A DNA stretch of 10,740 bases from Halococcaceae archaeon. Lineage in GTDB: Archaea; Halobacteriota; Halobacteria; Halobacteriales; Halalkalicoccaceae. Position 1 is the first letter of the stretch. The number at the start of each line of letters is the position of its first letter. The stretch covers positions 1 to 10,740 of the forward strand of contig SKWB01000349.1 of the NCBI GenBank assembly GCA_007129135.1. Direction: 5' to 3'. A program made the translations under genes and the position numbers. This document shows positions 1,933-10,338 of the stretch, piece by piece. The notes under the pieces were generated by a model. That model was not told the DNA's origin, did not search any database, and was given only the letters and a program-made list of their open reading frames with translations.

Positions 1933-3297
1933 ATGGAACGCGCCGACGTCGCGATCGTCGGCGGCGGCCCCGCGGGGATGGCTGCGGCCCACGCCGCAGC
2001 GGAGGCGGGCGCCGACGCCGTCGTCGTGGAGAAGGGGGTGCCGCGGGCCGACCGGGAGGGTCTCGGCCCGGACTCGACCGACGCCGCCGGGATGCTCGAC
2101 TACTGGGTCGACATCATGGGGATCGACCCCGCCGAACTCCCCGAGGACGTGATCCTCCAGGAGCTCTCTGGCGCACGGTTCGTCGGTCCGACCGAACGCT
2201 GCACGCTTCGGGACACCGGTCTGGAGTCGTCGTACCCGAACTTCGGGTTCACATTCCAGCGCGCGCGGATGGACGACTGGATGCGCGAGCGCGCGGAGGA
2301 GAGGGGTGCCGAGTACCGCGTCGGGACGGGCGTCCGGCGGGTCGAATCCGATACGGGTGGCCACACCCTCCACCTCGCCGACGGCTCCGAGATCGGCTGT
2401 GACAGCCTCGTCCTGGCCGACGGCCCGCAGCGAACGGTGACGATGGGTGTGCTCGACCCGTTCCTCCCCGACGGGAAGAAGGCCTCGGAGGTGCTCGGCC
2501 CGCGCCGTGCGAACCACATCGCCTACCAGGAACACCGCCGGATGCCGCCCGAACTGTTCGAGGATGACGTCATCACCTTCTGGTGGGGGCTGATCCCCGG
2601 GAAGACGGCCTATCCGTGGATCTTCCCGAACGACGACGGCGTCGCCCGAATGGGGCTGACGATGCCGATCGGGATGGACGTCGCGGAGATCGAGAACCGA
2701 GACGAGTACGACCTCCTCCGACCCGACGACGAGCGGATCCCCACGGGTGGGACCTACATCCGGCGGCTGCTCGAACGAGAGTTCGGTGACGAGTACGACA
2801 TCGACGAGGAGTTCCCGCTGGTCGAGGACAGGGGGAAACGCGGCGGCGTCGAGTCGTATCCGATCAGTTCGACGCGGCCGATCGACTCACCAACGGAGGC
2901 GGGGATAGCGGTCGCGGGCGGGGCGATGGGGACCACCTCCGCGTTCCACGAGGGCGGCTACCACGTCGCGGTCCGGTCGGGTGCGATCGCGGGCGACCTC
3001 GCCGCCCGCGGACGTCTCGCGGAGTACAACGACACCTGGAAGGCGGCGATCGGCGACGAGGTCCTCCGGAACGTCGCGATGGCCGACGTCGTCGCCGAGT
3101 ACGAACCGGACGACTGGGACCGGACGTTCCGAACGATCGGCACGATGCTCGAGAAACGCGGCGGGGGGCCGATCGACTGGGGTGCGCTCAGCTCCGGCTT
3201 CGGCGCGGCGAAGTTCTACACGGCCTACCGGAAGGCGAAGTTCCGGTATCGGAAAGGCCGGTACGTTCAGCTCTCCGAGTCGGACTACAGCTACTGA
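1933..3297 (+). CDS. FAD-dependent oxidoreductase, geranylgeranyl reductase/FixC-like
   Basis: This 454-residue flavoprotein starts with a beta-alpha-beta dinucleotide fold: VAIVGGGPAG at 6-15 and an acidic strand end VVVEKG near 31-35. It has FQRARMDDWM at 108-117, which fits the RxxFDxWL-type helix of the family, and LVLADGPQRTV at 159-169. PGKTAYPWIFP at 222-232 fits the PxxYxWxFP substrate-cavity motif of geranylgeranyl reductases. Such enzymes saturate isoprenoid double bonds, for instance in archaeal lipid chains, or pass electrons to quinones (FixC). The usual GDAAG flavin-phosphate motif appears as AGGAMG at 328-333, with Gly in place of the Asp. The ATG at 1933 is supported by the TATA box 29 bases upstream. 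The gene is divergent from the amidohydrolase, and its 3' end overlaps an orphan minus-strand fragment by a few bases. The exact substrate is unknown. Confidence 0.88.
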   Translation: MERADVAIVGGGPAGMAAAHAAAEAGADAVVVEKGVPRADREGLGPDSTDAAGMLDYWVDIMGIDPAELPEDVILQELSGARFVGPTERCTLRDTGLESSYPNFGFTFQRARMDDWMRERAEERGAEYRVGTGVRRVESDTGGHTLHLADGSEIGCDSLVLADGPQRTVTMGVLDPFLPDGKKASEVLGPRRANHIAYQEHRRMPPELFEDDVITFWWGLIPGKTAYPWIFPNDDGVARMGLTMPIGMDVAEIENRDEYDLLRPDDERIPTGGTYIRRLLEREFGDEYDIDEEFPLVEDRGKRGGVESYPISSTRPIDSPTEAGIAVAGGAMGTTSAFHEGGYHVAVRSGAIAGDLAARGRLAEYNDTWKAAIGDEVLRNVAMADVVAEYEPDDWDRTFRTIGTMLEKRGGGPIDWGALSSGFGAAKFYTAYRKAKFRYRKGRYVQLSESDYSY

Positions 3298-3404
3298 TAG
3301 GGGTAGCAGAACTCTTCATAGCTTCCGAACTGGCGGTTTGCGGACCCGTCGAATTCGGCGTCCAAGATGAAGATGGTCTGTGCAGCATCCCGCCACTGTT
3401 TGAT
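3291..3404 (-). pseudogene. Orphan 3' gene fragment, about 37 codons, no start
   Basis: A minus-strand frame from 3404 to a TAG at 3291-3293 reads IKQWRDAAQTIFILDAEF and continues DGSANRQFGSYEEFCYPYQ. Its composition is protein-like (aromatic and acidic, C/G-rich third positions). Two consecutive stops (TAG, TGA at 3405-3410) close the frame immediately upstream and there is no ATG, so it looks like the surviving C-terminus of a lost gene. It overlaps the last codons of the flavoprotein gene tail to tail. I do not recognise the family. It could be a chance open frame. Confidence 0.3.
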
Positions 3405-3515
3405 TCACTAAAATAGAAACGAATATCTCGATCGGTAGGGCGTGTGAGGTGATCGCGAGAGTCCCACCAGTCATAGATATAACACCGATTGACATATATG
3501 GGTCCGACAGAAGAG

Positions 3516-3953
3516 TCAGTCGGCGTTTCCGAGCGCAGACGGGTCTACACCGAGTTGTTGGAACCAGGAGAGCGTGTCGAATTCCTCGGTTCTCTCTACG
3601 ATTTTTCCGTCTTCCAATCGGTCGATCATGACGGCTGTGCCTTCGACCTCGTTTCCCGTCGGTTCGATACCCATATACTCCCCTTCGTGTGTGCCGCCAT
3701 ACGTGAAGTGCACGACTACTACGTCGTCTTCTGCTACCATTTCATGGAACTCAACGTCGGTATCCGGGAGCGCCGATAGTCGACCTCGCATGAGACCTTT
3801 GTAGCCATCTAGTCCTTCTATTTCCGTCAGTGGATCGGAGAACGTCATCTCTTCGTCCATCACGTCGTCCAAGGCGTCGAGGTCGTGACCCGAAATCGCT
3901 TCGAAAGTTCTTTCCACTGCGTTTTTGTTGCCCGCTGTGATTTCGGTGCTCAT
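3516..3953 (-). CDS. SnoaL-like ester cyclase family protein (NTF2 fold), second of a tandem pair
   Basis: This 145-residue cytosolic protein fits the SnoaL-like/ester cyclase branch of the NTF2-like superfamily. The N-terminal helix pattern NAVERTFEAISGHDLDALDD is followed by the family core GGTHEGEYMGIEPTG at 86-100 and by LEDGKIVERTEEFDTLSWFQQLG up to residue 135. Members cyclise polyketide esters or bind small hydrophobic ligands; many have no known reaction. The ATG at 3951-3953 overlaps the TGA of the upstream paralogue (ATGA), which points to one mRNA and translational coupling. The longer frame reaching further upstream is only the reading through its partner. The usual EHWD-like active-site segment reads VERTEEFD here, so catalysis is uncertain. 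Third codon positions are less GC-rich than in the flanking metabolic genes. Confidence 0.85.
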   Translation of the reverse strand: MSTEITAGNKNAVERTFEAISGHDLDALDDVMDEEMTFSDPLTEIEGLDGYKGLMRGRLSALPDTDVEFHEMVAEDDVVVVHFTYGGTHEGEYMGIEPTGNEVEGTAVMIDRLEDGKIVERTEEFDTLSWFQQLGVDPSALGNAD

Positions 3954-4387
3954 TGGCTCGCGCCACCTCCGTCGTCTGTGACGCCGAGCTGGGCGAGCAT
4001 CTCTTGCGGGTCGTAATATCCCCGCTCTTCGCCGATTTTCCCATCCGTGATCCGTTGGGTCCCCATCGTGTTGAACTCGATCTTCCGCCCAGTTGGGGGG
4101 ATTCCGTTGAATTCGCCCTCGTGGGTGCCCGTCACCGTCCACTCGGACATGATGACCTCATCGCTGGCGAGCATTTCATCGACCGTATACTCGAGGTCGG
4201 GAAACGCCTCCCGATTTCCACGGACGTATTCTTCGAACGCATCTCGGGTAAGCCCTTCCTCGGGCACCCCTGGCCCGTAAAAGGTATAGGACTTCGAGAG
4301 TACGTCGAGTTTCGAGAAATCCCCGTTCAGCAGGTCGGCATAGTCATGCACGAGTTGTTCGGCATCGGGCGCTGTTGCTTTGGGCAT
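3950..4387 (-). CDS. SnoaL-like ester cyclase family protein (NTF2 fold), first of a tandem pair
   Basis: The paralogue and upstream partner of the previous gene, also exactly 145 residues. The core motif GTHEGEFNGIPPTGRKIEF spans 87-105 and the C-terminal TDGKIGEERGYYDPQEMLAQLG ends at 135. THEGE (88-92), PTG (98-100), DGKI (115-118) and QLGV (133-136) fall at identical residue numbers in both proteins, so the pair arose by tandem duplication and has diverged without indels in this half. The start chosen is the ATG at 4385-4387, which gives the family's normal N-terminus and has a purine-rich GAGAGGA a few bases upstream; the frame continues further upstream but encodes basic, non-family sequence. 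Its stop overlaps the next start by ATGA. The two proteins may form a heterodimer, since NTF2-fold proteins commonly dimerise; this is inference. Confidence 0.87.
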   Translation of the reverse strand: MPKATAPDAEQLVHDYADLLNGDFSKLDVLSKSYTFYGPGVPEEGLTRDAFEEYVRGNREAFPDLEYTVDEMLASDEVIMSEWTVTGTHEGEFNGIPPTGRKIEFNTMGTQRITDGKIGEERGYYDPQEMLAQLGVTDDGGGASQ

Positions 4388-4832
4388 GGTTGGTCCTCTC
4401 TTTTGGGAGCGTCCCTCGCTAGAAGAGTGTCGGCCACTCTTTCGGTGGCGAAGAACACTCGCCGCTCGTACGCGCGCTGATGTGTTAACTCTTCGCATGC
4501 CAGGGCTGATCCTCTCGGTTCCCACCCTTGAAGAGGCGAATAGAGCGATCCAAACCCGATTTATACGGGACAGGTGACGAATACGCGCTCTGGGTCCAGC
4601 GCAGCCACTGAAGCGTATCAAAGATCGATAGATCCGGAAAATCGGACATTTGGAATCGACTGGACCCCGATGCGGACATCTTCGGGTCCGGCCGACGGGT
4701 CGTGGTCACCCAGGTGATCCTCGTCGGGTGCTGGAGATTCTTGAACCCGTCTCTGCGCAACCGGTTGGAGGTATGCCACCATTCCCCCAAATCCGATCTG
4801 GCCACGTAGGGTAGCTGTCCAGACCGAGGACG
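4388..4832 (-). other. Gene-free stretch with a possible degenerate MBL-fold remnant
   Basis: No convincing intact gene lies here. In one minus-strand frame around 4520-4610, interrupted by stops, the translation reads ASVAALDPERVFV, then a stop, then IGFGSLYSPLQGWEP. This resembles the C-terminus of the adjacent MBL-fold pseudogene (RKLASLGRMTLLPGH ... RELYSPLEGIQP). DNA at 4520-4549 and 4877-4906 matches at about 23 of 30 positions, in the same orientation and codon phase. It may be a second, more decayed copy. Confidence 0.3.
4558..4566 (-). promoter_or_regulatory. Possible TATA box for the SnoaL pair
   Basis: GTATAAATC on the minus strand is the best TATA-like sequence upstream of the pair. 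It would start transcription near 4535 and leave a leader of about 150 bases. A weaker GTTAAC at 4484-4489 is closer. I cannot decide between them. Confidence 0.3.
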
Positions 4833-5702
4833 TTACTCTGCGGGAGAGTGAATCTCGCCGTGATCGCCCTCCGATGGTTGAATCCCTTCAAGGGGAGAAT
4901 AGAGCTCTCGGAGATCTCCCTCCCATGGATCAACGTGTCCAGGGAGCAGGGTCATTCGACCGAGAGAGGCCAATTTTCGTGCGGAGTCCTGTTGTTGTCC
5001 GTGATCGAAGTTGAACAGGTTCCTCCTCGCACGGGCTCAGGATCGACGGCCTTCCCACTCATTACATCCATCGTTATCAGCGCGTCGCCAGCGAAGAGGA
5101 TTCGAGACTCCGGCAACCAGAACGAACAATGCCCCTCCCTATGCCCAGGCCTATGGATCACTTCAGGCTGACCGGGGACCTCCAGTACCTGTCCTTCGGT
5201 GAACGTGCTGACCTCGGAAATCGGTTCCCCGTGGAGCATGCCGGCTTTCATCAGGGCCCGGACGAAACGCAGATAGGCGGGTCGCCACACGAGCAGGAAG
5301 AACCCTAACGGTGGCTTGCCTACGCCTGCCAACGCTGCTTCGTACCCATCTTCGTGGACTCAAACGGGGATTCCCTCCTTACGAAGCGGTTCGGCAAGCC
5401 CGATATGGTACGGATCTATGTGCGTGAGAATCACCGCCTCGGTGTCGGTGATTTCGGCCCCGATTCGTTCGAGCCCGGCCTGTAGCAGCTCCATTTGCGC
5501 AGGCAATCCCGCATCGACCAGTGTCAGCCCATCATCGTCCTCGATGAGATACATATTGGTCACGGTCGAACAGAGCTGGTAGACTCCATTGGCCACTCCC
5601 GTGGCCACTCGTTCTTCCCCTGAGATGGGGTTCTACGTTCCAGGGGATCCTCATGTCCCTGCGCTGTACGATTCCTTTCGGGATTTGGTCTGCTGTTGCC
5701 AT
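4833..5702 (-). pseudogene. Metallo-beta-lactamase-fold hydrolase, disrupted
   Basis: An MBL-fold hydrolase can be followed through the region but not in one open frame. The N-terminal core VANGVYQLCSTVTNMYLIED, starting near 5596, runs on through LTLVDAG and LTHIDPYHIG. An in-frame TGA at 5360-5362 then interrupts IPV-VHEDG, and the same frame resumes to RPGHREGHCSFWLPES and LFAGDAL. At about 5020-5030 the sense shifts to another frame, giving RRNLFNFDHGQQQDSARKL and MTLLPGHVDPWEGDLREL, ending at a TAA (4833-4835). The 5' end may contain a third lesion: ATG 5700-5702 with AGGAG upstream opens MATADQIPKGIVQRRDMRIP, which would join the core by a shift at about 5612-5630; otherwise GTG 5606-5608 is the start. 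The metal motif HxHxDH reads HIDPYH, with Tyr replacing the Asp, another sign of decay. The family hydrolyses esters, thioesters or lactams; this copy is probably non-functional. Confidence 0.82.
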
Positions 5703-5776
5703 TGGCTCCTCGATTATACCCTCACTCGCCCTCCGACGTGATGGCAAAGCAGGCGCTGGTCTCCTCTACGACGCGA

Positions 5777-5799
5777 ACCATGTTAACAGTCAACATGGT
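5777..5799. repeat. 23-bp near-palindrome
   Basis: ACCATGTTAAC and GTCAACATGGT flank a single A; the arms pair at 10 of 11 positions. It could be an operator for a dimeric regulator or the scar of a lost element. No intact gene starts within 150 bases on either side. Confidence 0.6.
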
Positions 5800-5830
5800 C
5801 CGCCGGCCAACCGATTCGACTCTCCAAGCC

Positions 5831-5848
5831 GTATATCGTGCGAGATAC
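5831..5848. repeat. 18-bp near-palindrome
   Basis: GTATATCG-TG-CGAGATAC pairs at 7 of 8 arm positions. It lies 31 bases after the palindrome at 5777-5799, and no gene is attached to either. Confidence 0.5.
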
Positions 5849-6156
5849 GCGCTCTGTACCGATTGATCGACTCACCTCGTTGATCGACTTCTACCGTAGT
5901 GCCATACTCGTGCGTCGTGTCTCGCACAGCGTTTCTGGGAGCTACCGGATAGTACGAACTCGATGCCGTGACTTCTGTTGCCAACCCCTGTGATCCGGAC
6001 TGCTGTCCGACCGTATCGGCCAGATCACTGTCGGTCTTTCGGTCGCAGCGGCGAACAGGTACAACAGACCGTACGAAGCGGACGGCCACTCACCGTAGCC
6101 GCGAGCCTCGCGAGTCGGCGAGCGCCTCGATGAGGATAGCACCGATCGTCAGTCCG

Positions 6157-7479
6157 TCACTCCTCGTCGCCTCTCGCGTCCTCGTCCCCGCCGTTCCCGC
6201 CGTTCCCGCCGTCCTCGGCCTCCTCGTCGTCCACGCCGTCGTCCGTCCCCTCGGTATCGTCCACACCGTCGTCTCGCTCGGCTCCGGTCCACGCCTCCGG
6301 AACCACCAGATCGATGTCGGGCATCTCGACGAACGCCGTCTCGTAGCCCTGGTGTCGGGCGGTCTGTGGCGGCGTCTCGATCGCGATCGAGAGGTCGTCA
6401 CCCACGGCGACGTCGTCGAGCGAGAGCCCGTAGTGAAAGCCGATCTCCGAGTCGATCGTCTGTGCGAGGTCCTCCTCGGCCAGGTCGTCGCCCTCCCGCG
6501 AGTGGTCGACCGAGAGCGCCATCTCGGTGAGCGGGACCTCGTTGTACGGCGAGCGTGGGGAGACGATCAGGTACGCCACCTCGCCGACTACCTCCTCCTC
6601 GTCCTCGCCCGGGAGGTCGTCACCGAGGTCGGTCCCGAAGAAGGCCTCCGCCTCGGGGCTCCCGACGAGCGAAGTGAGGAACACCCCGTCGCCGCGCGTC
6701 GCTGGCTCGTCGGTCTCGGGATCGAGCAGGTGTGTTCCGGGCACCTCCCCCGTCGATGGCGCTCGCGCGTACGGGACGTCCCCGGTCTCCTCGCTGTCGG
6801 TGATCGGCGAGAGCGCGCCCTCCTCGCCCCACCGTTCCTCGTCGAGCCACTCGATCCGGTCGACCACTCTGTGTCTGAACGCCTCGTCGAACTCGAACTC
6901 GAAGGAAAAGCGCTCGCCGTCTTCGAAGCGCTCCTCGTAGCCCCGGGTCTTCGCGATGTTGATCCGACTCGTCGTGACCGTCACCTCGTACGTGCCGTCG
7001 CCGTCGAGCGGGACGTTGTCACCGAAGTGAAAGCCCATCTCCTGTGAGAGCATCGGCCAAGGCACCCGTTCGGCGACGACCTCCCCGTCGCGCTCGACCT
7101 CGACGTGTAACCCGGCGTCCATCGGGAGGACGATCCCGGTCCCCTCGTCCCAGACGGTCATCATCAGGTGGACGTCGTCGTCCTCGCTCGGCTCGACTCG
7201 CTCGACGTTCGTCCCGTCGACGATCCAGAACGGGTGTGGGTAGGTGAGCATAGGGGTGACCGCCACCTCGTCGCCGGAGAGCGTCTCGTACGCCTCCATC
7301 CCCTCCCGGTGAGTCGGGAGGTAGACCCGATCGGGGGGGTCTTCGATCTCCGGGAACTCGGGGACGAGCTCCTCCTCGGGTGTCGGCGTCTCCTCGTTGT
7401 CCTCGGTGGGGTCCGAGCAGCCTGCGACGGCCAGTGATCCGACCAGGCCCGCGCGGGAGAGGAACCGGCGACGGTTCAT
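6157..7479 (-). CDS. Tat lipoprotein with two P19/Tp34-like metal-binding domains
   Basis: The 440-residue product starts with a Tat signal (NRRRFLSRAGLVGSLAVAGC) whose lipobox Cys21 would be lipidated, anchoring it outside the membrane. Residues about 70-197 resemble the P19/Tp34 periplasmic iron-transport family: WPMLSQEMGFHFGDNVPLDG (141-160) parallels the family's MPM...HYGNN...MDG segment, with His151 as the expected metal ligand. A second copy occupies about 264-393, with GFHYG (347-351) and RHQGYETAF (375-383). GFHxG to GYE is 31 residues in both copies (149 to 180, 347 to 378). The tail (about 400-440) is a low-complexity acidic Asp/Glu/Gly/Asn segment. The ATG at 7479 is preferred over an in-frame GTG at 7518 because it puts the twin arginines at residues 3-5. 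The gene follows the DyP-like gene by 82 bases and is probably co-transcribed. Metal identity is inferred, not seen. Confidence 0.8.
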   Translation of the reverse strand: MNRRRFLSRAGLVGSLAVAGCSDPTEDNEETPTPEEELVPEFPEIEDPPDRVYLPTHREGMEAYETLSGDEVAVTPMLTYPHPFWIVDGTNVERVEPSEDDDVHLMMTVWDEGTGIVLPMDAGLHVEVERDGEVVAERVPWPMLSQEMGFHFGDNVPLDGDGTYEVTVTTSRINIAKTRGYEERFEDGERFSFEFEFDEAFRHRVVDRIEWLDEERWGEEGALSPITDSEETGDVPYARAPSTGEVPGTHLLDPETDEPATRGDGVFLTSLVGSPEAEAFFGTDLGDDLPGEDEEEVVGEVAYLIVSPRSPYNEVPLTEMALSVDHSREGDDLAEEDLAQTIDSEIGFHYGLSLDDVAVGDDLSIAIETPPQTARHQGYETAFVEMPDIDLVVPEAWTGAERDDGVDDTEGTDDGVDDEEAEDGGNGGNGGDEDARGDEE

Positions 7480-7561
7480 CGACTCGCTCCGTTCATTTCG
7501 TACACGCTCCGTATTCACCTAGTCCCGATCGTCGCGTATCCGAACTCGAAACCGGCAATTT

Positions 7562-8842
7562 TCACCACTCCCCGTCGGGAGTCGGCAGCGCCCTGAGCGA
7601 CCGGGGCGGGAGGAGGAAGTTGCCCCGCCGGTTCACGAACAGGTACTGGAGGATGCCGTTGTTGAGCGTCTGCCCGACCCCGTTGCCCGCCAGGTCCGCG
7701 CCCGTCATCGCCTCCCGTACCCGGACGAACTCCTCGATCTCGCGCTGGAGACAGAGGAAGTGCAGCCCCGGCCGACCCCCGTCGACGGTGTTGAAATCCC
7801 GCCGGAGCAAGAGCGGTTCGCCGTCCTCGCGGGCGCGAGCGGCCTTCTGTGCGTGACCGACGACCCCCTCCGTCCGTGCGTCCGCCGCGGTCGCCTCGAT
7901 CCGCTCTTCGGTGAGCCCGCTCGAGTCCGAGAGCGACTCGCCGTACTCGCCGACGACGTCCTCCCTGGCGTGTTCGGCGCTGAACAGCTTCGCGACCCGC
8001 TGGGCGTGGGTGTCCTGTTCGTACCAGACGTCGAGCTGGATCGTCATCGAGGAGAGGTGTTCGGTCGTCCCGCCGGCGAACGGCCCCCCCTCGATCGTCA
8101 CCCTGTCCTCGGTCGCCTGGCTCTCCCTGAACCCGGAGCGAAAGCCCATGAAGAAGGGCGCTTCCTCCGGGATCGGGTCGGAGGAGGGGATGCCGCGGAC
8201 GTCGTCGTCCTGCTTCTCGGCGGGCAGCCCCTCGCCGACGAAGCCGGATCGTCGGAACTCGAGCGAGAACCCCTCCTCCAGGCCTCGCTCCACCGTCACC
8301 CCGTTGACCTCGTCGTGGCCCTCGACCAGCGCGGATTCGGCCTCGAGCACCGCCTGCTCGTGGTCGCTCGCGAGGTGGAGGAGGAGGTCTGCCTCGTCGA
8401 AGTCGGGCTCTTCGAAGTCGGTGAGCGCGGTCGGGTGTGGGAGCTCGACACCCGCAGGCTCGCTCCCGAAGCGCTCGAAGTAGCTCGGGGAGAGGCCGAC
8501 GGTGAAGAGCAGTCCGTCAGTGCTCCACTCGTAGGCGCGTTCGAGCGTCTCGAGCGCGCCTTCGAGCAGCGCTCTGTCCTCGTCGGTCGGCTCGCCGTCG
8601 CGGTCGAGCGCGAGCGAGAGCAGGACGTGGTGACGCGGCGAGCGAACGTTCCCGTCCTCGTCTGCCTCACAGACCGCGTTCCAGGCGTGCTGGCGCTCGG
8701 GGAGCTCCTCGCCCTCCTCGATACCGCCGGGGATCTCGCGCTCGCCGAACTCGTCGAGACACGCCGAGAGCGCGCCGATGCCGCCGGCTGCGACGAGCGC
8801 TCTCGCGTACCCGCGGCGTGTGAGTCCGGCCCGCTCTGTCAT
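7562..8842 (-). CDS. Tat-exported DyP-type (EfeB-like) peroxidase homologue
   Basis: A 426-residue protein with a Tat signal (TRRGYARALVAAGGIGALSAC) and lipobox Cys28. The body follows the DyP peroxidase plan: an N-terminal ferredoxin-like half with HHVLLSLALDRDG (71-83), FTVGLSPSYFERF (113-125) and DLLLHLASDH (152-161), then FMGFRSGF at 231-238, VGHAQKAARARED with His330 as the likely proximal heme ligand, LLLRRDFNTVDGG (344-356) and GLHFLCLQREIEEF (359-372). DyP enzymes use heme and peroxide; EfeB works on the outer face beside the FTR1-type iron permease. The canonical distal Asp of GFxDG is Ser236 here, so peroxidase activity may be altered. The ATG at 8842 is supported by the signal peptide and by a TATAAT box 30 bases upstream; the open frame continues upstream without sense. 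It leads the P19-like gene and is divergent from the propeller gene. Confidence 0.85.
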   Translation of the reverse strand: MTERAGLTRRGYARALVAAGGIGALSACLDEFGEREIPGGIEEGEELPERQHAWNAVCEADEDGNVRSPRHHVLLSLALDRDGEPTDEDRALLEGALETLERAYEWSTDGLLFTVGLSPSYFERFGSEPAGVELPHPTALTDFEEPDFDEADLLLHLASDHEQAVLEAESALVEGHDEVNGVTVERGLEEGFSLEFRRSGFVGEGLPAEKQDDDVRGIPSSDPIPEEAPFFMGFRSGFRESQATEDRVTIEGGPFAGGTTEHLSSMTIQLDVWYEQDTHAQRVAKLFSAEHAREDVVGEYGESLSDSSGLTEERIEATAADARTEGVVGHAQKAARAREDGEPLLLRRDFNTVDGGRPGLHFLCLQREIEEFVRVREAMTGADLAGNGVGQTLNNGILQYLFVNRRGNFLLPPRSLRALPTPDGEW

Positions 8843-8851
8843 CGTCCCCGC

Positions 8852-8862
8852 TACGTGTCGAA
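8852..8862. repeat. 11-bp direct repeat at the DyP-like core promoter (copy 1)
   Basis: TACGTGTCGAA lies between the TATA box and the start codon of the DyP-like gene. An identical copy lies at 9007-9017 at the divergent promoter, 155 bases away. A shared regulator-binding site is a reasonable guess. Confidence 0.55.
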
Positions 8863-8866
8863 CGGA

Positions 8867-8872
8867 ATTATA
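8867..8872 (-). promoter_or_regulatory. TATA box for the DyP-like/P19-like operon
   Basis: TATAAT on the minus strand (within GGTATAATTCC) begins 30 bases before the ATG at 8842, typical of a leaderless haloarchaeal transcript. Confidence 0.75.
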
Positions 8873-8910
8873 CCTGTTCACCCGCACCGGCCGCTCTCCC
8901 TTTCCGGCAA

Positions 8911-8945
8911 AAACGACTGCTACCCCGGACACATGACAGTCGTTT
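8911..8945. repeat. Inverted repeat in the divergent promoter region (9-bp arms)
   Basis: AAACGACTG at 8911-8919 and its exact reverse complement CAGTCGTTT at 8937-8945 are separated by 17 bases. The repeat sits upstream of both TATA boxes, so it could be an activator or repressor site acting on both genes. Confidence 0.6.
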
Positions 8946-8967
8946 CCGCTATCTCGTGCGGAAGCCC

Positions 8968-8987
8968 CGTTTTCGGCGTCGAAAACG
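8968..8987. repeat. 20-bp inverted repeat next to the propeller gene's TATA box
   Basis: CGTTTTCG and CGAAAACG are perfect 8-bp arms around GCGT. The site ends 16 bases before the TTATAC box at 9004, the usual place for an operator or activator site in archaeal promoters. Confidence 0.6.
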
Positions 8988-9003
8988 CCTTCGAACGGCA
9001 GTC

Positions 9004-9009
9004 TTATAC
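9004..9009 (+). promoter_or_regulatory. TATA box for the beta-propeller gene
   Basis: TTATAC starts 30 bases before the ATG at 9034. This spacing decides the start in favour of 9034 over the in-frame ATG at 9019. The opposing DyP-like promoter has the same six bases on this strand at 8868-8873. Confidence 0.75.
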
Positions 9010-9017
9010 GTGTCGAA
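9007..9017. repeat. 11-bp direct repeat at the propeller core promoter (copy 2)
   Basis: The second copy of TACGTGTCGAA overlaps the end of the TTATAC box and extends towards the expected transcription start. Occupancy here would block TBP or polymerase. Confidence 0.55.
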
Positions 9018-9033
9018 GATGCGAGGAGACACC

Positions 9034-10338
9034 ATGTCGAGACACACGACTCGACGCCGGTTCCTGCACGGTGGGGTAGCTGTCGGCGGCATCGCCCTCG
9101 CGGGCTGTGTCGGCGGCGAACCCGAACCCTCCGCCGTCGCGGGCGGTGGCGAGGAGACCGACGACGAGCACGAAGACGACGAGAGCGAGGAGTACGCCGA
9201 GAACTACGAGGTCTGGGCGTTCGACCAGGGTACCGACGTGGGCTACATCTACGGCCCCGACGGCGAGGGTTCGTTCGAACTGGTCGACGAGATCGATATC
9301 GCGGCACTCGAGGAGACCGAGGACGAGGGGAACGTCCCGCACATGGTCGACTTCTCCTCGGATTACGAGTACGCGGCCGTCGCCTGCACCGCGGGCGCAC
9401 GGACGCTCGTCTTCCGAACCGAGGACCGCGAACTCGTCGGGGCCTGCCCGACCGGTCCCGGAACGCACTTCGCGGGCTTCACCCCAGACGACGAGTACAT
9501 CCAGGTCGACGTCATCGGCGAGGGGCGGATCAAGCGGATCGACGCCGACCTGGAGAACGAGGAGTTCTCGATCGTCGACGAGATCCACGTCAGGGAGGCG
9601 GGACCGGTCGCGGAGCGCATCGAGGAGTTCTCGCTCGACGAGGACGAGCTCCGACCGATCTGTCACGACTACTCGAACGGGACCTCGTATCACACCCTCG
9701 GTCCCAGCATCGACCACGCGGGGGTCGTCGTCGTCGACTACGAGTCCTTCGAGGTCGTCGAGGCGTTCGCGCCGAGCGAGATCCGGGCGAACTGCGGGAC
9801 GATGGCCCACCCGAGCGAGGACAAGCTCTACCTCACCGCGGGCGCGCCGTCGAACCACGAGGAGACCGGCGGCGTCGGCGAGTGGTACGTCGTCGACACC
9901 CAGGAACACCGGCCGATCGACCCCGAGACGGGCGAGGTCGTCGAGGGCGAGTACTCCCACGAGGACGTCTCCCGCGACAGCGAGGGCTACGACGCCCACG
10001 GCTTCTGGTTCACCGCCGACGGGGACGAGTTCTGGATCCTGAACCGCGAGACCGACGACGGTCTCGTCGTCGACCCGGAGACGGACGAGGTGGTAGACGA
10101 CGTCCCGGACTACGGCCCCGCACCGGACATCATGTGGGGGTCGCCCGACGGGAAGTACAAGTTCGTCACGCTGCGTGGTCCGGAGCCGGTCTCGGGCGAC
10201 CCGCACGCGGCGACCGGTGACACGCCCGGTTTCTCCGTCATCGACGTGGAGTCCCGGGAGATCGAGGAGGTCGTCCAGCCCGACGAGGGCAACCCGGAGA
10301 GTGACTTCCACGGTATCGGCGTGCGCGTGCTCGACTGA
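9034..10338 (+). CDS. Tat lipoprotein with YncE-like beta-propeller, histidine-rich
   Basis: The 434-residue product begins with a Tat signal (TTRRRFLHGGVAVGGIALAGC; twin arginines at 7-9, lipobox Cys25), followed by a Gly/Asp/Glu-rich spacer to about residue 58. The rest has repeating four-stranded blades of the YncE/cytochrome d1-like propeller kind: YEVWAFDQGTDVGYIY, HMVDFSSDYEYAAVAC, HFAGFTPDDEYIQVDV, MAHPSEDKLYLTAG, AHGFWFTADGDEFWILNR, MWGSPDGKYKFVTLRG and a closing FHGIGVRV. Many blades carry His near their first strand (PHMV, THFA, CHDY, AHPS, AHGF, FHGI), which could place several His around the central channel. Propellers of this class bind proteins, metals or heme d1; the ligand here is unknown. 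The start is set by the TATA box 30 bases upstream. The gene is divergent from the DyP-like operon, sharing its regulatory spacer, and its stop is followed at once by a perfect hairpin. Confidence 0.82.
   Translation: MSRHTTRRRFLHGGVAVGGIALAGCVGGEPEPSAVAGGGEETDDEHEDDESEEYAENYEVWAFDQGTDVGYIYGPDGEGSFELVDEIDIAALEETEDEGNVPHMVDFSSDYEYAAVACTAGARTLVFRTEDRELVGACPTGPGTHFAGFTPDDEYIQVDVIGEGRIKRIDADLENEEFSIVDEIHVREAGPVAERIEEFSLDEDELRPICHDYSNGTSYHTLGPSIDHAGVVVVDYESFEVVEAFAPSEIRANCGTMAHPSEDKLYLTAGAPSNHEETGGVGEWYVVDTQEHRPIDPETGEVVEGEYSHEDVSRDSEGYDAHGFWFTADGDEFWILNRETDDGLVVDPETDEVVDDVPDYGPAPDIMWGSPDGKYKFVTLRGPEPVSGDPHAATGDTPGFSVIDVESREIEEVVQPDEGNPESDFHGIGVRVLD

Follow-up and report, generated by a model that had tools for sequence, protein, structure and literature searches.

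The two exported proteins DUF7405 and DUF7350 form a common gene pair in haloarchaea, and the beta-propeller encoded divergently from them in the analyzed DNA is a minority add-on. The reading we prefer is that of a surface pair that handles copper or iron without the bacterial permease and that is joined in some species, presumably alkaliphilic ones for the most part, by a possibly copper-binding propeller; we put its chances at about even.

The window, i.e., the whole stretch of 10,740 nucleotides that was analyzed, is an entire contig of a genome that is 70.9% complete. Among named organisms, Natronorarus salvus has the most similar proteins (identity, 85% for the propeller, 87% for DUF7405, and 74% for DUF7350). 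The three open reading frames that the original prediction had placed here were found at the positions given in Table 1; residues are numbered from position 8839 in DUF7405, one codon after its Met, and from 7482 in DUF7350 and 9031 in the propeller, each one codon before its own Met. The proposed Tat signal and lipobox are borne out on all three proteins by alignment counts across each family: R8 (47/48), R9 (48/48), and C27 (48/48) in DUF7405, R8, R9, and C26 (each 42/42) in the propeller, and R4 and R5 (39/39) and C22 (37/39) in DUF7350. A lipid anchor is predicted for the exported pair. Behind DUF7405, after a gap of 82 bp, comes DUF7350, which is presumably on the same transcript. A cohesin-domain gene that directly follows DUF7350 in locus L091 of N. 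salvus is missing from the window.

Table 1. Position and character of the features in the window
Feature	Position	Strand	Remarks
Stretch without blastn alignment to Natronorarus salvus L091 (3300-6288) or to L223	3300..6226		blastn
DUF7350 CDS	6157-7479	-	Tat lipoprotein; two P19/FtrA-like domains; conserved Met and His
DUF7405 CDS	7562-8842	-	Tat lipoprotein; DyP fold; proximal His and distal Arg retained, GxxDG Asp replaced by Ser
Divergent intergenic promoter region, 191 bp	8843..9033		From the sequence
TATA-like box, DUF7405	near 8866-8874	-	~28 bp before the ATG, by eye
Inverted repeat, two perfect 9-bp arms, 17-bp spacer	8911..8945		Putative operator
Propeller upstream element	8931..9013	+	TTGCC/TTTCC-CTATCT block at about -88; second block at about -58
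Inverted repeat, two perfect 8-bp arms, 4-bp spacer	8968..8987		Putative operator
TATA-like box, propeller	near 9002-9009	+	~28 bp before the ATG, by eye
Propeller CDS	9034-10338	+	Seven-bladed beta-propeller Tat lipoprotein; conserved His, D366, Cys

Distribution and linkage of the three genes

Profile searches placed DUF7405 in 262 and DUF7350 in 255 of the 292 haloarchaeal class genomes, among the matches listed, and the propeller was found in 40 of them (22 of 77 genera). Every genome with the propeller also encodes DUF7405, and all but one of the 40 encode DUF7350; the presence of DUF7405 in 40/40 genomes with the propeller versus 222/252 without it corresponds to a Fisher P value of 0.02 (both statements again among the matches listed). 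Among 80 named loci, which are biased toward the window protein because they were chosen by similarity as the best 80 of 289, 68 have DUF7350 no more than 5 kb from DUF7405, and 58 have it immediately downstream. Both families also have a match in the genome of Haloferax volcanii. In a second sample of 39 genus-spread DUF7405 loci, taken from genomes not listed with the propeller, DUF7350 fell inside the fetched stretch in 24 and was not near in 15.

The propeller shows a different picture. DUF7405 was in the fetched stretch of nine of the 42 propeller loci, either partner in 11, and neither in 31. Chance linkage in 9/42 loci was estimated at ~2e-11, a rough figure that assumes copy number and genome size and ignores shared ancestry. 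The full divergent trio occurs in nine genomes (the window, L091, L101, L117, L129, L130, and the named loci L223 to L226, where L226 and L117 are one organism and are counted once). At L092, DUF7405 and the propeller are divergent without DUF7350, and L125 has the head-to-tail order DUF7405, DUF7350, c11 (a cohesin-domain gene), propeller. Thus, of the conserved co-occurrence proposed for three genes, the part concerning DUF7405 and DUF7350 stands, as these are often neighbors, but the trio is rare; a propeller found in 40/292 genomes and mostly apart from both partners is also no general stand-in for EfeO. The propeller loci further hold c3, read by eye as ilvD, in 26/42 cases and c5, read by eye as ribL, in 22/42. 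Two alignments drew on part of the matches: A4 contains 59 rows from the 120 listed of 226 matches, leaving out rows of ~43% coverage, probably permuted, and others, and A5 contains 54 rows from the 120 listed of 1,361.

The pair comes in two forms. Among the named loci (best 80 of 289), the first form has a helix-turn-helix gene in 22 and a DUF7471 gene in 21 within 5 kb of DUF7405, and the second has c11, which matches Pfam Cohesin with 35 bits, after DUF7350 in 25. This gene is also missing from L223, and it is present at L227, L230, and L267, whose genomes gave no propeller. The top word of an unguided scan, ACCAnAACC, stands upstream of 15 of the 39 genus-spread loci versus 8 of 600 background upstream regions. 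In a DUF7405 tree of 57 rows, built with a quick method and rooted at the midpoint, a branch with 100% SH-aLRT support places all 25 propeller-positive rows within a side of 35 rows, the other ten of which are propeller negative, and none within the remaining side of 22 rows.

A survey of 50 named genomes, drawn from 50 of the 80 named loci (best 80 of 289), found the propeller in 18 and not in 32. We take most of the 18 to be haloalkaliphiles, for example, Natronococcus amylolyticus, Natrialba chahannaoensis, Natrarchaeobius, Natronorubrum bangense, and Halorubrum alkaliphilum, and most of the 32 to be neutrophiles, such as Natronococcus jeotgali, Natrialba asiatica, and N. taiwanensis. Likely exceptions are Natronorubrum thiooxidans and Halovivax sp. 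KZCA124, which carry the propeller and presumably are not clear alkaliphiles, and Halobiforma nitratireducens, presumably an alkaliphile, which does not carry it. This contrast is a lead rather than a test.

Folds and conserved residues

DUF7405 matches its Pfam family PF24152 with 508 bits, and its fold matches DyP, with EfeB among the matches. H329, R346, and R347 are invariant (48/48), and in an hhalign alignment that as a whole has a probability of 6.7%, the window's H329 and R346 correspond to H329 and R347 of EfeB; we take H329 to be the position of the proximal heme-ligand His and the conserved Arg to be the distal Arg. Asp 235 of the GxxDG motif of EfeB aligns, at low hhalign probability, with DUF7405 position 235, which holds S (27 sequences), A (17), G (2), T (1), or N (1) and Asp in 0/48. 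By sequence, the similarity to DyP is marginal: the best hmmsearch E value was 0.066, the scores of 17.9 bits with PF04261 and 23.2 bits with TIGR01412 fall under the cut-offs of 20.4 and 428, and precomputed PF20628 matches exist for 5 of 120 listed relatives. The designation as a DyP-like peroxidase therefore holds for the fold and the His and Arg positions but not for the GxxDG Asp or the family cut-offs. DUF7405 has Tat export, too, in common with DyP-type peroxidases and the deferrochelatase EfeB, but differs from them in its lipobox and in having DUF7350 rather than EfeO/EfeU as a neighbor.

DUF7350 matches PF24041 with 157 bits and belongs marginally to PF10634 (P19/FtrA), where its score of 21.5 bits is just above the cut-off of 21; a PF10634 search of the whole genome at an E value of 0.001 listed no match. 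The profile of its first domain matches the FtrA structure 8vv5 with an E value of 1.7e-5 and other P19 and Tp34 structures more weakly, and its second half repeats the first (hhalign probability, 96.6%; E value, 5e-10), in agreement with the double P19-like protein originally proposed. Residues H83, H105, M107, M144, M149, H152, and H377 are each invariant (39/39). Like P19, FtrA, and FetP, the protein is exported, and the PF10634 match spans the pM...G.HyGdN stretch; it differs from them in joining two domains within one lipoprotein and in that no FTR1 permease was found in the haloarchaeal class sample. In Campylobacter P19, a copper site lies ~7 angstrom from an acidic metal site (PMC9174327). 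A fusion of DUF7350 with plastocyanin also occurs (P0260).

The structure model of the propeller is seven-bladed (pLDDT, 88.3; pTM, 0.85), and H104, H146, H212, H221, H323, H392, and H427 are conserved, as are D366, C211, and C255, so that the His-rich beta-propeller was correctly recognized. In the predicted structure, most blades present a His on the inner strand. The top match by sequence profile and fold is the YVTN propeller of an archaeal surface-layer protein (1l0q) and the YncE family, which is, however, a broad repeat class. Nitrous oxide reductase (NosZ and L-NosZ) and thiocyanate dehydrogenase likewise combine a seven-bladed propeller with Tat export and inner-strand His, and the channel of thiocyanate dehydrogenase carries a trinuclear copper site. 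H427 coincides with NosZ H494 provided that the C-terminal alignment contains no gap. Unlike in these enzymes, one inner-strand position is an Asp (D366), and unlike NosZ and L-NosZ, the protein has 435 amino acids and no match to a CuA domain in Pfam or NCBIfam. An assignment to L-NosZ was rejected, with a score of only 18 bits versus a cut-off of 700. Haloarchaeal NosZ-like proteins reach at most 147 bits with the L-NosZ profile, which also matches 7 of 14 control genomes, including Escherichia coli and Bacillus subtilis (both among the matches listed), and a profile alignment between the propeller and these NosZ-like proteins was not significant. Copper or another transition metal is probably bound in the His-lined channel.

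The divergent promoter region

A single divergent promoter region had been claimed for all three genes; this is valid for DUF7405 and the propeller but not for DUF7350, given its place behind DUF7405. The TATA-like boxes recur, by eye, in L091, and their spacing from the start codons fits that expected for leaderless transcripts of both divergent genes. The two inverted repeats are possible operators; the left arm of the one with 9-bp arms is not retained in L091.

An alignment (A6) revealed an upstream element of 84 positions common to 32 of the 42 propeller promoters, six of which belong to loci with the pair or DUF7350; the ten promoters left out were mostly those where the block is not evident. 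One of these, at L092 (genome G226), was recovered by model R1 with an E value of 6e-4. The best match of R1 was the propeller promoter in 18/18 genomes, with a next-best E value overall of 0.035, although this search is not an independent test because 17 of the 18 genomes had contributed to the training set and no more than 150 candidates were scored in each genome. A regulon did not emerge from either approach taken: an exact 12-mer had 10 matches in 10 of 30 genomes, four of them at propeller promoters, versus 11 matches in nine genomes for the control, and model R1 found only the propeller below an E value of 0.03 among up to 150 candidates per genome. From these patterns, the propeller seems to be under its own control and not part of a large regulon.

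Possible roles of the pair and the propeller

With Tat export and a predicted lipid anchor, DUF7405 and DUF7350 would be displayed outside the cell membrane. There, the Met/His sites of DUF7350 may capture copper, ferrous iron, or both, and DUF7405 would bind heme and do redox work beside it, be it metal or peroxide oxidation or heme handling, probably not as a standard DyP peroxidase; any uptake would proceed through a carrier that is not FTR1. In one lineage, the pair has gained the downstream cohesin-domain surface gene, and part of this lineage encodes a Tat-lipoprotein propeller, beside the pair or elsewhere, whose recruitment may have taken place mainly in alkaline brines.

Several observations speak against a metal-handling pair. 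Sequence similarity of DUF7405 to DyP is marginal, DUF7350 lies away from DUF7405 in 15/39 loci, and 31/42 propellers are without both partners. The 135 neighbors scanned, out of 221 collected and 148 retained, came from 36 of the 39 loci (L143, L150, and L160 had no gene call); copper-type neighbors are few among them (Copper-bind in 2/135), and the commonest families, helix-turn-helix (10/135) and DUF7471 (9/135), do not indicate metal (all among the matches listed). The pair does occur with multicopper oxidase, ZIP-like, and heavy-metal ATPase genes, and in two cases with a plastocyanin-like gene, at L154, L164, and L165, but these three loci look like one mobile cluster.

The original prediction had compared the genes with bacterial iron import. 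EfeUOB, too, includes a Tat-exported DyP-fold protein, and in a haloarchaeal version of EfeUOB or P19-FTR1, DUF7350 would bind ferrous iron, DUF7405 would help to oxidize it, and a permease replacing FTR1 would receive it. The P19/FtrA similarity of DUF7350, the DyP fold with EfeB among its matches, and the labels "iron transporter" or "EfeB" on relatives in some databases are in line with this scheme, as are two potential partners: eight of the 80 named loci (best 80 of 289; two of the eight are in one genome) have, no more than 5 kb from DUF7405, the gene c25 for a multi-pass membrane protein with no Pfam match and ~8 to 11 hydrophobic segments, and the ZIP-like protein of the three loci above scores 24.9 bits, below its Pfam cut-off of 35.1. 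Nevertheless, we regard the scheme as unlikely. FTR1 was found in 0/292 class genomes and M75/EfeO (PF09375) in 0/145 haloarchaeal genomes, while each was positive in 4 of 14 control genomes; no metal-permease family is within the 25 commonest families of the 135 scanned neighbors, where MFS_1 accounts for 5/135 (among the matches listed); and all 48 DUF7405 sequences have lost the GxxDG Asp. Import of the EfeUOB or P19-FTR1 type is therefore not supported in the genomes searched.

Other readings give the propeller or the redox chemistry a larger part. Modeled on nitrous oxide reductase and thiocyanate dehydrogenase, with copper between inner-strand His, the propeller could be an uncharacterized enzyme with a copper cluster, or a protein with a copper site, in mostly alkaliphilic haloarchaea, with DUF7350 supplying its copper and DUF7405 serving as its heme redox partner on the surface; we consider this rather improbable. 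By analogy with the cobalamin-binding BtuG, a heme-binding DUF7405 and a ligand-binding surface propeller might instead scavenge heme or corrinoids, which strikes us as quite improbable. We give an equally low probability to a pair for oxidative stress or surface redox, with DUF7405 as a low-activity peroxidase and DUF7350 sequestering copper against Fenton chemistry: the DyP fold with its retained proximal His and distal Arg and the conserved Met/His of DUF7350 would suit such a role, but the lack of the GxxDG Asp argues against it. All of these readings overlap, and their probabilities need not sum to one.

In a search of mainly open-access journal papers, no publication naming DUF7405 or DUF7350 was found, nor any description of this system in work on EfeB, P19, FtrA, or DyP. 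Term searches gave no P19, FTR1, or EfeB in the main text of a review on haloarchaeal metal homeostasis (PMC3600143) and no EfeB, peroxidase, or DUF7405 in a review of open annotation issues (PMC8305020). The system is uncharacterized under these names, as had been supposed: DUF7405 and DUF7350 are present in roughly nine in ten of the haloarchaea sampled yet absent by name from the literature searched. Protein types of bacterial iron import that occur without FTR1 or EfeO matches suggest either a role independent of FTR1 or another haloarchaeal permease, and the propeller may be a new metal-site protein, a possibility that can be put to the test.

Gene neighbourhoods of the trio

In the window, the stretch behind the DUF7350 gene (3300-6226) holds two SnoaL-like genes in tandem and a metallo-beta-lactamase-like gene split into two pieces; its counterpart in Natronorarus salvus (L091) is a cohesin-domain gene. 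At locus L125, such a cohesin-domain gene lies within a head-to-tail row that runs DUF7405, DUF7350, cohesin-domain gene and propeller, and a member of the plastocyanin-like cluster c70 flanks this row on the other side. Members of the flavoprotein cluster c27 also lie close to the trio or DUF7405 in L091, L092, L101, L129, and L130. In L154, L164, and L165, DUF7405 and DUF7350 are clustered with genes for a multicopper oxidase, a ZIP-like protein, and a heavy-metal ATPase, joined at two of these three loci by a plastocyanin-like gene.

Features of the window
Feature	Coordinates	Remark
Flavoprotein gene	1933-3297	Cluster c27
Stretch without alignment to Natronorarus salvus	3300-6226	Compared with L091

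Circular permutation of the propeller

The propeller gene is circularly permuted in L127 to L130 and in L170, with the later blades leading and blades 1 to 3 placed at the end. All six channel motifs are present in the permuted propellers of L127 to L130, and two of the motif patterns are unmatched in that of L170.

Upstream word of DUF7405 and a candidate partner carrier

Among the genus-spread loci L131 to L169, the word ACCAnAACC occurs upstream of DUF7405, mostly 40 to 50 bp from the gene, in 15 of 39, versus 8 of 600 background upstream regions. Cluster c25, a family of multi-pass membrane proteins with no Pfam match, is encoded near DUF7405 in L133, L137, L158, L161, L162, and L169, as well as in eight of the named loci (the best 80 of 289 by similarity to the window protein). 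This membrane protein is a candidate partner carrier.
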